This document shows positions 58,179 through 64,000 of a stretch of DNA of 64,000 nt, piece by piece (positions within the stretch are counted from its first letter, which is position 1; every line of letters starts with the position of its first letter). The stretch comes from Taklimakanibacter lacteus. Its GTDB lineage: Bacteria > Pseudomonadota > Alphaproteobacteria > Rhizobiales > Aestuariivirgaceae. The stretch covers positions 186,001-250,000 of the forward strand of contig QOZQ01000003.1 of NCBI GenBank assembly GCA_003576695.1, in the 5' to 3' direction. Made by a program: the position numbers and the translations under genes. The notes under the pieces are model-generated. The model saw only the letters and a program-made list of their open reading frames with translations, did no database searches and was not told the DNA's origin.

Positions 58179-58218
58179 CGAGTCACGGCCAATGTGCCGG
58201 GGCATGAGGGAGGAAAAA

Positions 58219-59412
58219 TTGGCAAATCCTTACGCAAAATGGTTGCGGGCGGCCGTGCTCGGCATGGCAGTTGTCGCCGGCGTTCCGGCGCTCGCTGGCG
58301 GCGTCGATGAACTGCCGCAGCAAATCCGCGATGAGCTTTACAATCCCAACATGATCGATCCGATGCAGCCGATAGGCGAAAGCGCCTATCGCGACTGGAA
58401 GGCGAAAAACCCGCCGCCCTGGACGATCGGCTACGCGAGTTCCTATGCCGGCAATACCTGGCGCGCCGACGTCATGAAGCGGCTGCAGGATGAAATCATC
58501 CCAAAGTGGAAGAAGCTCGGGCTGATCAAGGACGTCATCATCACGCAGTCCAACCTGAACGACTCGACGCAGATCCAGCAGATGCGTCAGCTGGTCGACC
58601 AGGGTGTGGATGCGATCATCGTCTGCTGCTCCAATCCGACCGCCCTCAATCAGACCGTTCAATATGCGCATGAGCGCGGTGTTCCGGTGTTCTCCGGCAT
58701 CGGATACCTGACGTCGCCTTACGCCGTGAACTCCTCTGCGAATTTCGTCGCCGGCGGAGTCCAGATGGGCGAATGGATGGCCAAGGAGATCGGCGGCAAG
58801 GGCAACATACTGGTCGTCGAAGGTATTCCGGGCGCCTCGGCGTCCGATTCGCAGAATGTCGGTATCCTCAAGGCGCTGGAGAAATATCCGGACATCAAGG
58901 TCGCCGGCCAGGTCGCCGGCATGTGGACGGACCAGATCGCACAGGCCGAGATCCAGAAGTGGCTCGCGACCAATCCAGGCGAGCTGAACGGCATTATTAT
59001 CCAGTCGGCATCGGAGCTGGGCGGCCTCAGGGCCCTCAAGCAGAGCGGACGGGATATGGTGCCGCTCACCATCGGCGGCGAGCTTGGCGCGCTGTGCTAC
59101 TGGCGCAAGAATCCCGAATATGTCAGCGCCGCCATTCAGGCCTGGCCGCCCGGTGACGACTTCGAATTCTCCTGGAATATCATGATGCGCACGCTCCAGG
59201 GGCAGGGACCCAAGGTGCAGTCGATCCTGACCAAGCCGCAACTGCTTACTTTCGAGCAATTGTCGAAGGTCCTCGACGAGAACTGCAATGAGGATTCCGA
59301 CGGCTGGTACAATGTCGGCATCGAGAGCTGGGCCGGAAAGGACTATCTCGACCAGTTCTTCCTCCACCCGGCCGACCCAGAGAAATACGACCCCGCCAGC
59401 CACGGGAAATGA
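58219..59412 (+). CDS. Periplasmic substrate-binding protein of RbsB-like ABC importer
   Basis: A 397-residue type 1 periplasmic binding protein (Peripla_BP_4 fold) with an N-terminal signal (WLRAAVLGMAVVAGVPALAGG). The fold pattern is seen in TIGYASSYAGNTWRADVMKRL, QMRQLVDQGVDAIIVCCSNP, and FVAGGVQMGEWMAKEIGGKGNILVVEGIPGASAS. Such proteins usually bind sugars, but diverse small molecules are known. TTG 58219 is preferred because GGGAGG stands 5 bases upstream; an ATG at 58204 lies before this site. It heads a cluster with a fusion ATPase, hydrolase and permease. Confidence 0.85.
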   Translation: MANPYAKWLRAAVLGMAVVAGVPALAGGVDELPQQIRDELYNPNMIDPMQPIGESAYRDWKAKNPPPWTIGYASSYAGNTWRADVMKRLQDEIIPKWKKLGLIKDVIITQSNLNDSTQIQQMRQLVDQGVDAIIVCCSNPTALNQTVQYAHERGVPVFSGIGYLTSPYAVNSSANFVAGGVQMGEWMAKEIGGKGNILVVEGIPGASASDSQNVGILKALEKYPDIKVAGQVAGMWTDQIAQAEIQKWLATNPGELNGIIIQSASELGGLRALKQSGRDMVPLTIGGELGALCYWRKNPEYVSAAIQAWPPGDDFEFSWNIMMRTLQGQGPKVQSILTKPQLLTFEQLSKVLDENCNEDSDGWYNVGIESWAGKDYLDQFFLHPADPEKYDPASHGK

Positions 59413-59508: not shown

Positions 59509-61701
59509 TTGGCAATGGCCTATCCTACCGTCGAAATTTCCTCCGTCGTCAAAACCTTTGGACCGACTGTGGCCTTGGGAGGGTGCAACCTGCGCGCCCA
59601 CGCCGGAGAAGTTCATGCCATCATTGGCGGCAACGGGTCGGGCAAGAGCACCCTTGCCAAGGTGATCTCGGGCGTCCTCATCCCCGACAGCGGGCAGGTT
59701 TCAATTCTCGGAAAATCGGCCACCTCGCCCTATGAAGCGCGCCTTCTCGGCATATCGAACGTCTTCCAGGAAGTGCTGGTCGCCGATGAATGCTCGGTGC
59801 TCGACAATCTCTATCTGGGTGCCGACGGCCTGATCGGCGCCGCGATGAACCAGGAAGAAAAGCGCGACAAGGCAGCCGCCCTCATGCGCGAGCTGCTCGG
59901 CTTTGATCTCGATCTGTCGGCGCTGGTGGGCGAACTGCCGTTGAGCCTAAAGCAATGGATTACCATCGCCAGGGCGCTGCTTACCGAACCCAAGGTGCTG
60001 ATTCTCGATGAATCATCGGCTGCCCTCGATTTCGATGCGACCGAGCGGCTGTTCCGCAAGATGCGGCAGCTCAAGAAGACCGGCACCAGCATCCTGATCG
60101 TCACGCATCGCATTGCGGAGTTGGTGCGGATCGCCGACCGTGCGACGGTGCTGCGCGATGGCGTCGATGTGGGTTGCCTGGAAAAGACGGAAATCACCGA
60201 AGCAAGGATTCTGGAGCTGATCGCCGGTCCGCAGCGCGAGCGAGCAGAAACAGCGCAGATCATCCCGCAAAGACAAGGCGACAGCCCGCTGCTGCGGGTT
60301 ACCGACGGTCGCATCTGGGACGACGCCGCTTCGATCGATCTCGCACTCTATCCGGGCGAAATCATCGGCGTAACCGGGCTCGATGGTCAGGGACAGGCCG
60401 ACTTCGTGCGCTGCCTCGCCGGCATCCAGCCGCTGGTCAGGGGGCGCATTTCCGTGGTGCGCGACAAGGCAGCTAACGACATCGTCGATCTGCATTCGGC
60501 GCGCGCCAATGATGTCAGCTATGTGAGCGGCGACAGGAAGAAAGAGGGCATCTTCGCCAATCTCAGCATCTTCGAGAATCTTGTTTTGCCGGTGTTCTCC
60601 GAATATCGGCTGGGTTCGGTTCTCAATCTCATCAACCGCACCAAGCTCAATCCGGTATTCGAATGGGAGGCGAGCAAGCTGGCGGTGAAGATGGGGGATC
60701 GCGGCAACCTGATCACCTCGCTGTCGGGCGGCAACCAGCAGAAGGTGCTGATCGCACGCTCCTTTGCCGAGAAGCCCGCCGTGCTGGTGCTCAATGACCC
60801 GGCGCGCGGCATCGATGTCGGCGCCAAGCTCGATCTCTATCGCAATCTCAGGGAATTCGCCTCGCGCGGCAATGCCGTCGTGTTCCTGTCGAGCGAGATC
60901 GAAGAGTTTCTCAATCTGTGCACGCGGGTGAACGTTTTCCACAACGGGTCGATTTCGTCGGAATTCGAGCCGCCCTATGACAGCCACGTCATTCTTAATG
61001 CTATGTTCGGCCGCAAGGCGACGGCGCGGCTTCCGGGCGAGGCGGCGAACCAGAATGATGCGGTCGCGGACGTGGTGGTCGGCCAGAGGGTGGCGGTTGG
61101 CGACGGCGGATATGATAGCGCGCGGCCGATGCCGCCACCCGTCACGCCGGAGCCGCGACGCCCGAATGGCACTCTCCAGGAAGGGACCGCGTTCGAGTTG
61201 AAATGCCCCGATATCGCTCCTGGCCAGGTGATTCCACGCAAATTCACGGAGGCGAACCGGCTTTCGCCGCGCCTCGTTTGGTCGGGGATCCCGAGCGGCA
61301 CCAAAAGCTTTGCTGTCGCGATCACCGATCCTGACCTGCCCGAGGAGTTCAAATTTCCCCGCGCCTTCGCGCACTGGCTCGTCCATGACATTCCAGTGGG
61401 CATTCGCGAATTGCCGGAGGGCGCCAGTGGCAGCGCGCTTTTGCCCGATGGCGCCAGAGAGCTGAACAGCGACTTCGTCACCTTCAAGATACCGGGTTTC
61501 GGGCGCGGCTATGGCGGGCCGTGGCCGCCAGACCGGCAGCATCGCTATGTATTCACCATCTACGCTCTGAAAGCGGAGAGGCTCGACATAGCGACCGATG
61601 CCGATCTGACAGTCTTCGCTGCGGCGGTCCTGCCGGTAACGATCGCTCAGGCGTCATTCGTAGCCGTCTATGGGCCGGCAGAGAAGCCGCTGCCCGGCTG
61701 A
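59509..61701 (+). CDS. RbsA-like double ABC ATPase fused to a YbhB/PEBP domain
   Basis: A 730-residue fusion. Residues about 1-500 are a sugar-type double ATPase: first domain Walker A GGNGSGKST (residues 40-48) and Walker B VLILDESSAALD. The second domain has a degenerate Walker A (GVTGLDGQGQADF), as in RbsA, with an intact LSGGNQQKVLIARSF signature. A proline-rich linker (about 503-560) leads to a complete PEBP (Raf kinase inhibitor-like) domain (about 562-728), with conserved ITDPDLP, AHWLVHDIP and GYGGPWPP, the anion/ligand-pocket motifs. The frame is continuous, with no plausible internal start before the PEBP domain. TTG 59509 has GGGGA 6 bases upstream; ATG 59515 is an alternative. PEBP proteins bind phosphate-bearing or lipid head groups. 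Confidence 0.88.
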   Translation: MAMAYPTVEISSVVKTFGPTVALGGCNLRAHAGEVHAIIGGNGSGKSTLAKVISGVLIPDSGQVSILGKSATSPYEARLLGISNVFQEVLVADECSVLDNLYLGADGLIGAAMNQEEKRDKAAALMRELLGFDLDLSALVGELPLSLKQWITIARALLTEPKVLILDESSAALDFDATERLFRKMRQLKKTGTSILIVTHRIAELVRIADRATVLRDGVDVGCLEKTEITEARILELIAGPQRERAETAQIIPQRQGDSPLLRVTDGRIWDDAASIDLALYPGEIIGVTGLDGQGQADFVRCLAGIQPLVRGRISVVRDKAANDIVDLHSARANDVSYVSGDRKKEGIFANLSIFENLVLPVFSEYRLGSVLNLINRTKLNPVFEWEASKLAVKMGDRGNLITSLSGGNQQKVLIARSFAEKPAVLVLNDPARGIDVGAKLDLYRNLREFASRGNAVVFLSSEIEEFLNLCTRVNVFHNGSISSEFEPPYDSHVILNAMFGRKATARLPGEAANQNDAVADVVVGQRVAVGDGGYDSARPMPPPVTPEPRRPNGTLQEGTAFELKCPDIAPGQVIPRKFTEANRLSPRLVWSGIPSGTKSFAVAITDPDLPEEFKFPRAFAHWLVHDIPVGIRELPEGASGSALLPDGARELNSDFVTFKIPGFGRGYGGPWPPDRQHRYVFTIYALKAERLDIATDADLTVFAAAVLPVTIAQASFVAVYGPAEKPLPG

Positions 61702-61739: not shown

Positions 61740-62144
61740 ATGAACAAGTATGGCGGAAGGAAGAGCTTCGATCTGGAATGGATCGAGCGCTGGGCGCGCT
61801 GCGTCAACGACGACCGGATATTGCCGGTGATCGGGCGCTTCTTCACCAGCCGGTTTGTGCTCGGTGTCGATGACACGGAATATCTGATCGATGTCCGCAG
61901 CGGCAAGATCCAGCGCATCTCCGAAGGACTGGCGCCCAACGACATGGGTTATGATTTTGGCCTCAAGGCGCCAAGCAGCGCCTGGTCCAAATTCAGCCAG
62001 AAGATCCCGCCGCCCATGTTCAACGACATATGGGCGATGGCGCATCCGCTGCACAAGCAACTGGTCATCGACGGCAACACGCTGCCCTTCTGGCAGAATC
62101 TGCGCGCGTTGTCGCGCATGCTCTCGCTGATGAGACAGGTCTAG
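61740..62144 (+). CDS. Small protein, possibly SCP2-like sterol/lipid-binding fold
   Basis: Not firmly recognised. The 134-residue product has the hydrophobic strand/glycine pattern seen in SCP2-type lipid-binding proteins (FVLGVDDTEYLIDVRSGKIQRIS, then WSKFSQKIPPPMFNDIWAM, then LVIDGNTLPFWQNL), but the match is by eye only. ATG 61740 has GGAGGGAGG just upstream; ATG 61701 is an alternative that overlaps the fusion-gene stop (TGATG), giving 147 residues. It is followed 13 bases later by the hydrolase gene. No signal or transmembrane segment, so cytoplasmic. Confidence 0.68.
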   Translation: MNKYGGRKSFDLEWIERWARCVNDDRILPVIGRFFTSRFVLGVDDTEYLIDVRSGKIQRISEGLAPNDMGYDFGLKAPSSAWSKFSQKIPPPMFNDIWAMAHPLHKQLVIDGNTLPFWQNLRALSRMLSLMRQV

Positions 62145-63175: not shown

Positions 63176-64000
63176 ATGTCGCAGTCGCGGGGTTCACAGA
63201 ACACCTACCTGCTGGTACCGATCCTGCTGATCGCCGTGCTGCTGAGCACCGCGGTGATCCGCGGGCCGAATCTCGTTTCGCTGTCGGGCTTCGGCAGCGC
63301 GATCATCGTTTCGGCGCCGCTCATCCTCGCGACCTACGCACTAATGGCACTGGCAGTCGCGGGACGTGGGACGGTCGATCTCGCCGTCGGTCCGCTGCTC
63401 GCCTTCATCAATGTTTCGGTGGTGAAACTGAACGGGCTCGGCGTCGTGACCTCACCGCTCGGCGTCTTCATCGTCGCCCTCGGCATCGGGGTTCTTTACC
63501 AGCTGCTGTTCGCGCTCATCATCATCGTCGTGAGAGTCCAGCCGATCATCGTCGCGCTGAGCGGTTTCCTGGCGCTGACCGGCATCAATCTGGTGATCCT
63601 TCCCCGGCCTGGTGGTGTGGCGCCGGACTGGATGTCATCCTGGGGACTCGGCAACACCATCTTCTCGCCGGTCCTATTGATGCTGGTCATCGCAACCGGC
63701 GGCTGGCTGCTGTTCACGCTCACATCCTTCTACGGCAATCTCAGGATGATGGGCTATGACGAGCGGGCGGCCTATACCAGCGGCGTCAGGATCAATATCG
63801 TGCGTATCGGCGCGCATGTGATTGCCGGATTGTTCGTAGGCCTCGCGGCGATCTGCTACACCGGGCTCATCGCATCGGGCGACCCGACGCAAGGCACGAC
63901 GATGACGCTGACCGCCGTCACCGCTTTGGTGCTCGGCGGCATCAGCCTGTCGGGCGGACGCGGCGGCGTGACCGGCGCGCTTCTCGGTGCGCTCAACCTC
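63176..64000 (+). CDS. RbsC-like ABC transporter permease, 3' partial
   Basis: The first 275 codons of an inner-membrane permease of the ribose/branched-chain type; the frame is open to the window end. About eight hydrophobic helices are seen, with the family features LMALAVAGRGTVDLAVGPLL near the third helix and the ATPase-docking/GG motif TALVLGGISLSGGRGGVTGALLG near the current end. It follows the hydrolase by 61 bases and supplies the channel for the binding protein and the fusion ATPase. A second permease may follow outside the window. Confidence 0.85.
   Translation, partial: MSQSRGSQNTYLLVPILLIAVLLSTAVIRGPNLVSLSGFGSAIIVSAPLILATYALMALAVAGRGTVDLAVGPLLAFINVSVVKLNGLGVVTSPLGVFIVALGIGVLYQLLFALIIIVVRVQPIIVALSGFLALTGINLVILPRPGGVAPDWMSSWGLGNTIFSPVLLMLVIATGGWLLFTLTSFYGNLRMMGYDERAAYTSGVRINIVRIGAHVIAGLFVGLAAICYTGLIASGDPTQGTTMTLTAVTALVLGGISLSGGRGGVTGALLGALNL

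Follow-up and report, generated by a model that had tools for sequence, protein, structure and literature searches.

In CUT2 importers, uptake is driven by the binding and hydrolysis of ATP, and the C-terminal domains of MetN, ModC and MalK regulate importer ATPases. PEBP proteins, in which two aspartates, two histidines and one arginine are nearly invariant, form fusions infrequently, and the sections consulted of a review on the family list only the glucose/sorbosone dehydrogenase type (PMC8793217). It is argued in the same sections that bacterial PEBP/YbhB proteins are unrecognised small-molecule enzymes. Flotillin-associated rhodopsin (FAR) clusters, in turn, are described in the consulted part of another paper for Pelagibacterales, HIMB59 and Pseudothioglobus (PMC10308929).

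The gene described below encodes a CUT2-type ATPase whose chain continues into a PEBP domain, and it sits in a FAR-type operon that extends past the end of the window (the whole stretch of 64,000 nucleotides that was analysed). The first-pass annotation had called the fusion unusual and undescribed, and this view holds as far as the sources reach: the sections of the PEBP review (PMC8793217) give dehydrogenase-type fusions only, and no ABC-PEBP protein was found in the titles and abstract openings listed by searches of open-access papers. The PEBP domain normally exists alone, and its conserved fusion to an ATPase is a concrete clue to the role of bacterial PEBP proteins.

The ATPase-PEBP gene and its product

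The forward-strand frame at 59509-61701 contains no stop over its 730 codons. Translation probably begins at ATG 59515 (MAYPTVE), which is where the homologues begin, and not at TTG 59509. An earlier reading of this frame as two RbsA-like nucleotide-binding domains (NBDs), a linker and a complete PEBP domain with its motifs is borne out by profile searches. The Pfam profile ABC_tran matches the protein in two stretches (1.1e-37), and the PBP profile PF01161 matches residues 575-721 (1.5e-28) with 100.2 bits against a cut-off of 24, covering profile positions 2-135 of 135. The fused PEBP domain has the motifs DPDLP, HWLVHDIP and GYGGPWPP and is the sole PF01161 match in the window's genome. Taken alone, the PEBP part matches E. 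coli YbhB (1vi3, 6.2e-21) and five further PEBP chains among solved structures. In NCBIfam, the first 500 residues have their highest scores against CUT2 ATPases, among them D-allose AlsA and galactofuranose YtfR; all of the 25 best families shown fall below their cut-offs.

AlphaFold models the fusion with low confidence (mean pLDDT 63.1, pTM 0.44). The pLDDT drops below 50 in the linker (residues 506-559), over residues 342-410 and in places within the PEBP domain. The low values in the linker may lend slight support to its being disordered; since the model is weak elsewhere too, it neither proves this nor informs on contacts between the domains. A structure search with the model returned only ABC-type proteins among its best 50 matches and is uninformative on domain arrangement.

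Distribution, conservation and origin of the fusion

The same domain order occurs elsewhere. The uninterrupted ATPase-PEBP architecture is present in 12 distinct genomes, including four of Mesorhizobium, whose records are not marked as MAGs, as well as Rhodobacter and Gemmobacter; one fused locus, L003, is from Mesorhizobium denitrificans. A genome scan gave nine further loci (L003-L011), each with the ABC and PEBP parts in one frame and 69-76% identical over the whole chain, and the order-wide sample added the genomes G539 and G488. G565 (L084/L126) is taken as the same record as L007, its sequence over the gene being the same, and hence the total is 12. In the samples, the fusion was found once among 385 genomes of the class, four times among 397 of the order (the window's genome and G565 counted), once among 69 of the family and once among 5 of the genus, the last two being the window's genome each time. 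The six ATPases that rank next in the class sample, with 49-58% identity, have no PEBP, and their match stops at about residue 504. The patchy distribution of the fusion may point to spread by transfer.

The alignment of the fused proteins holds 13 rows from the 12 genomes, as the duplicate L084 is included, and three rows are cut at the N-terminus by locus ends; L084 was excluded from the PEBP tree, the ATPase tree and the dN/dS comparisons. D607, D609, H622, H678 and R679 are invariant in this alignment and appear to correspond to the nearly invariant residues given in the PEBP review sections, the one-to-one pairing being made by motif (PMC8793217). For the PEBP domain, nine of ten pairs have a dN/dS of 0.06-0.18, and the remaining pair, whose dS is very low, has 0.37; for the NBDs (alignment columns from 100 on), it is 0.02-0.19 over ten pairs; and for the linker, it is 0.11-1.07 in the nine pairs of ten that are computable, all of these values being rough because dS exceeds 1 in several pairs. 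Judged from these comparisons, both domains are conserved, with purifying selection on both sides of the linker, and the linker drifts. A short RP-containing motif (GRPVPRPV-like) is present in the linker of 11 of the 12 fused genomes.

The fused PEBP domain stands apart from other members of its family. In the order sample (397 genomes), the PEBP parts of the fused relatives are 64-76% identical to the query, while all other listed PEBPs (E up to 1e-20) reach at most 45%. No free full-length PEBP of the fused type was found in the family and order samples, where the others are at most 46% identical, with the exception of one 57-residue fragment at 55%. In 9 of the 12 fused genomes the fused domain is the sole PF01161 match; the other three also keep a free PEBP. 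In a tree of the 12 fused and 26 other PEBPs from the family and order samples, a set of nominally stand-alone proteins that includes two dehydrogenase fusions (L074, L090), the fused domains share a single branch (100/99), whose stem measures 1.15 changes per site. This separate clade on a long stem suggests that the fused PEBP is specialised.

The ATPase tree compares 12 fused, 10 unfused FAR-type and 14 other CUT2 sequences. The fused ATPases form one clade (100/100) beside eight unfused ones, the unfused L015 and L124 are basal within the FAR type, and all 22 are apart from the other CUT2 rows (100/100), although the tree carries a long-branch warning and some joins may be false. Two sequence features accompany this split. 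The Walker B of NBD2 reads LNDP in 22 of 22 FAR-type ATPases, compared to DEP in 13 of the 14 other CUT2 rows, and the exact NBD1 signature PLSxKQW is found in 19 of 22 FAR-type ATPases compared to none of the 14 others. The unfused FAR-type ATPases end in a short variable tail. The tree places the fusion inside a CUT2 ATPase subfamily of its own, in which no other sampled member has PEBP.

The comparison also indicates that, among the sequences compared, the fusion arose once, in an alphaproteobacterial lineage. The repeated independent occurrence that the first-pass annotation had named as support for a real fusion was not seen, as both trees give one origin, and a second, independent ABC-PEBP fusion was not found among the matches listed from a phylum sample of 398 genomes searched with PF01161 (156 matched). 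Among these listed matches are three frames of at least 600 aa, none of which matches the ABC part; two are dehydrogenase fusions and one has PEBP only. Dehydrogenase-type PEBP fusions were recovered at L074, L090, L157 and L158, which means that the method detects fusions. Separately, two open frames with a C-terminal PEBP and no other Pfam match were observed (L071:1390-3351, 653 aa; L156:2722-4521, 599 aa), which may be undescribed fusions or just long open frames.

The operon and its unfused relatives

The features of the fusion gene and its operon are collected in Table 1.

Table 1. Domains of the fusion and genes of its operon. Positions are those of the window, or of locus L002 (G000:C18:240001-259000), which covers the operon beyond the window end, where so marked.
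Feature	Positions	Strand	Description
Substrate-binding protein, periplasmic, CUT2 type	58192..59412	+	406 aa; Peripla_BP_4 8.4e-38; closest solved chain a CUT2 periplasmic sugar-binding protein (7.8e-26)
ATPase-PEBP fusion gene	59515..61701	+	728 aa from ATG 59515; 730 aa from TTG 59509
NBD1	59530..60174	+	estimated to span residues 8-222 or so of the 730-aa frame; Walker A GGNGSGKST, altered signature PLSLKQW, Walker B ILDES, H-loop VTHR
NBD2	60289..60969	+	estimated to span residues 261-487 or so; degenerate P-loop GLDGQGQAD, signature LSGGNQQ, altered Walker B (LNDP)
Linker	61021..61191	+	about residues 505-561; 33-76 residues long and of low identity among homologues
PEBP/YbhB domain	61192..61692	+	residues 562-728; PF01161; signature residues D607, D609, H622, H678, R679
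SCP2-fold protein (P3)	61740..62144	+	134 aa; structure model and Foldseek
Alpha/beta hydrolase, partner of P3	62158..63114	+	318 aa; Abhydrolase_1 1.5e-22; nearest solved chain a meta-cleavage product hydrolase (4.8e-11)
First permease, crossing the window end	63176..64000 (L002:9176-10543)	+	BPD_transp_2
Permease 2	L002 10540-11958		BPD_transp_2
Rhodopsin-like protein	L002 11968-12657		Bac_rhodopsin 2.3e-12
Flotillin	L002 12718-14691		Flot 3.2e-31
Small membrane protein	L002 14726-15190		
Symporter-like protein	L002 15187-17094		
LysR gene, after the symporter-like gene	L002 17101-18159		LysR family

The operon is well preserved among the fused genomes. The gene for the substrate-binding protein lies upstream of the ATPase, and PEBP, P3 and hydrolase follow in direct succession, in 12 of 12 genomes. 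Gene order is identical across the other fused loci as far as each reaches: L127 ends in the first permease, the rhodopsin-like gene is directly beside the flotillin gene in all 11 loci that extend so far, and the symporter-like gene is reached in L125, L126 (= L007) and the window's genome. The symporter-like protein of the window's genome has no Pfam match; over 629 residues it shares 28% identity with an SSF-family protein of L121. Comparison of mainly upstream flanks of 1.7-6.6 kb found no flanking gene common to fused operons other than an ABC ATPase in 3 of the 12 loci. A second flotillin-type gene is present in the window's genome on another contig (L166 on G000:C18; L165 on G000:C20).

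By its gene content, the fused operon would be classed as FAR-type. Unfused relatives with a binding protein, ATPase, both permeases, a rhodopsin-like gene and flotillin are found at L013, L014, L016 and L118-L121; the binding protein is on the opposite strand in L121 and L122, and the contig of L122 ends inside the ATPase. L012 is a short contig, and in the stretches around L015 and L124 no rhodopsin or flotillin was seen. The SCP2-fold gene and hydrolase come after flotillin in L118-L122, lie upstream on the opposite strand in L013, and were not seen in the stretches of L014 and L016. No PEBP gene was found around the ten unfused FAR-type ATPases (L012-L016, L118-L121, L124) by HMM at E up to 1, nor a stand-alone one in the unfused FAR-type stretches L012-L016 and L118-L124, although the same HMM recovered PEBP elsewhere.

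Several further observations concern these unfused clusters. Biotin carboxylase and LamB/YcsF genes (L121:12312-14596) lie beside the operon of L121, which belongs to an alphaproteobacterium with a small (1.4-Mb) genome, probably one of the Pelagibacterales; this resembles a neighbourhood reported for Pelagibacterales in the consulted part of the FAR paper (PMC10308929) and is a further reason to call the fused operon FAR-type. An IKIVEFD-like motif recurs near the C-termini of the unfused FAR ATPases of L013, L118, L119 and L121, and a separate protein of 111 aa (L118:4191-4526) has three copies within its first 60 residues; the motif is possibly a docking peptide. The first permease of L118:4587-6920 and of L120:12500-14893 has a long tail with repeated GSGIQSLG-like units.

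The identity of P3 comes from its predicted structure. Pfam gives no match for the window's P3 up to E 10, and the matches of other members are weak and mutually unrelated. Its model, made from 26 sequences, has a mean pLDDT of 88.4, and all seven Foldseek matches at E up to 0.001 are of SCP2 type (best 1wfr, 3.3e-6; 2cx7, 5.3e-5, TM 0.67). A P3 member was found in 31 of the 385 sampled genomes of the class. A hydrolase adjoins P3 in 23 of the 24 loci L094-L117, and in three of them (L102, L104, L108) the two are in one frame. Around other P3 homologues, no PEBP gene was found in any of 20 stretches of 3.5-16 kb, of which 19 have a hydrolase match, so that PEBP is linked to the P3-hydrolase pair only in the fused lineage. 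The neighbours differ among seven of these 20 stretches, as read by eye from N-termini and not by profile.

The hydrolase tree, which includes 10 of the 12 fused genomes (all but L006 and L010), groups the ten fused-lineage hydrolases with 16 from stand-alone P3-hydrolase pairs (99/98), and places six from unfused FAR clusters, with one stand-alone pair, in a separate group (99/97). Since the fused hydrolases group away from the unfused FAR ones, PEBP, SCP2 and hydrolase look like one added module. This suggests that PEBP, P3 and hydrolase either arrived as a single unit or were assembled to serve a common task, the direction and joint arrival being read from gene order together with a tree that is unrooted and has one very-long-branch row at its midpoint root.

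In the rhodopsin-like protein, the residue of helix G aligned with the retinal lysine, in a column that is presumably the right one as placed by alignment and motif, is leucine in all 11 fused loci examined; in eight unfused proteins it is lysine in five and arginine, leucine and glutamine in the others. A search at E up to 0.001 gave a single PF01036 match in every one of the 12 fused genomes; two of these matches score below the family cut-off, and at this threshold neither a second rhodopsin nor a partner proton pump was found. The gene is in the operon in 11 genomes; in G488 it is on another contig, the operon contig ending before it. Thus, in hosts that include Mesorhizobium, the only rhodopsin-type gene found is without the retinal lysine. 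As far as the consulted part of the FAR paper goes, most freshwater FAR relatives share this lack, and the published marine FAR genomes, unlike the fused ones, always have a separate proteorhodopsin; the proposal made in print, that a proton-pumping rhodopsin is assisted by FArhodopsins, would have no place in hosts such as Mesorhizobium (PMC10308929).

Possible roles of the fused domain

The best explanation of these findings, held tentatively, is that the PEBP domain, fused once to the ATPase of a FAR-type CUT2 importer, serves there as a tethered uptake-and-processing domain. ATP binding and hydrolysis would power uptake and, with LNDP in place of the DEP of NBD2, catalysis may rest on one site. 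On its flexible tether, PEBP would stay near the cytosolic mouth of the permease, able to reach the channel exit and the SCP2 and hydrolase partners. Its polar pocket would receive the imported compound and bind or chemically change it, and the SCP2-fold protein and hydrolase would complete its take-over. The fusion would in this way hold an uptake-and-processing module at the transporter, in a membrane patch scaffolded by flotillin. Given SCP2 and the hydrolase, a guess is that the compound is not a plain sugar but amphipathic, or one with acyl or aryl groups.

Handling or conversion of a compound is favoured over allosteric control because of the tether and the SCP2 and hydrolase neighbours. 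It is less likely, though it deserves to be weighed, that PEBP is a regulatory domain, which senses a cytosolic ligand (substrate or product) and turns the ATPase down or up. The topology, with an extra domain C-terminal to importer NBDs, is that of known regulated ATPases, and the altered NBD2 Walker B of all 22 FAR-type ATPases makes them asymmetric and perhaps tunable. The invariance of the PEBP signature residues in 12 genomes fits regulation too, since a ligand-sensing domain would also keep its pocket residues. However, the linker of 33-76 residues is poorly conserved, and the ten compared unfused ATPases of the same subfamily work without PEBP. The first-pass annotation had proposed a new way to control an ABC importer; the ATPase-PEBP fusion is real, but control is kept only as a competing idea, since a linker of varying length and sequence would suit a tether no less than a rigid allosteric coupling, and the genes immediately downstream, for the SCP2-fold protein and the hydrolase, point to compound handling.

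A bolder and doubtful proposal is a receptor-coupled importer, in which the rhodopsin without its retinal lysine would be a blind 7TM receptor or subunit of a flotillin-scaffolded transporter, and PEBP a tethered enzyme converting the entering substrate before SCP2 and hydrolase. If this is true, bacterial YbhB gains a defined enzymatic context and FAR clusters gain a function in uptake, not light.

That PEBP targets the ATPase to the membrane, binding lipid head groups and keeping it in a flotillin patch, is improbable. Flotillin does occur in the operon in all 11 fused loci that reach that far, but the ATPase is already held by its permeases, as is generally known of such transporters, and the unfused relatives with flotillin have no PEBP. 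Moreover, according to the consulted sections of the PEBP review, polar lipids added in crystallisation were not seen in PEBP structures (PMC8793217).

A neutral passenger is likewise improbable, there being only a slim chance that the fusion is a stable accident in which PEBP acts like free YbhB. As the sole PF01161 match in 9 of 12 fused genomes, it may supply a general YbhB function; against this, 3 of 12 also keep a free PEBP, no free full-length proteins of the fused type were found in the family and order samples (the 57-residue fragment apart), and the long-stemmed clade suggests specialisation. An artefact of frameshift, missed stop or misassembly has next to no chance: nothing was found in its favour, 12 genomes share the fusion, the four Mesorhizobium records among them are not marked as MAGs, selection is purifying on both sides of the linker, and a hidden frameshift or missed stop is ruled out by 12 uninterrupted homologues.

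The conserved fusion, set beside genes for a hydrolase and a carrier-type protein, indicates a pathway within which the ligand of PEBP can be sought, and it recasts the FAR cluster as an ABC importer operon.

Compared with CUT2/RbsA-type ATPases (RbsA, AlsA, YtfR, XylG), the fusion shares two NBDs per chain, a Peripla_BP_4 binding protein and BPD_transp_2 permeases. It differs in forming its own subfamily (100/100), in having two different permeases and an altered NBD1 signature, in an NBD2 Walker B that reads LNDP instead of the DEP expected of CUT2, and in an NBD part that scores below the cut-offs of the 25 best NCBIfam families. Like the PEBP/YbhB/RKIP/FT family, its last domain matches PF01161 over the cut-off and has the five signature residues, but here it is fused to an ABC ATPase. 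MetN, ModC and MalK likewise have an extra domain behind their NBDs, whereas that of the fusion is a PEBP rather than an ACT-, TOBE- or OB-like domain, and it follows a long variable linker on a double-NBD chain.

The published FAR cluster, as given in the consulted part of its description, has a rhodopsin-like gene that adjoins flotillin, an SCP2 protein, an inner-membrane translocator, a sodium symporter and alpha/beta hydrolases, as does the fused operon; in the main text, gene tables apart, "ABC" and "phosphatidylethanolamine" each occur 0 times (PMC10308929). Compared to that cluster, the fused operon is distinguished by an ATPase that carries PEBP and by SCP2-fold and hydrolase genes that come directly after it (PMC10308929).
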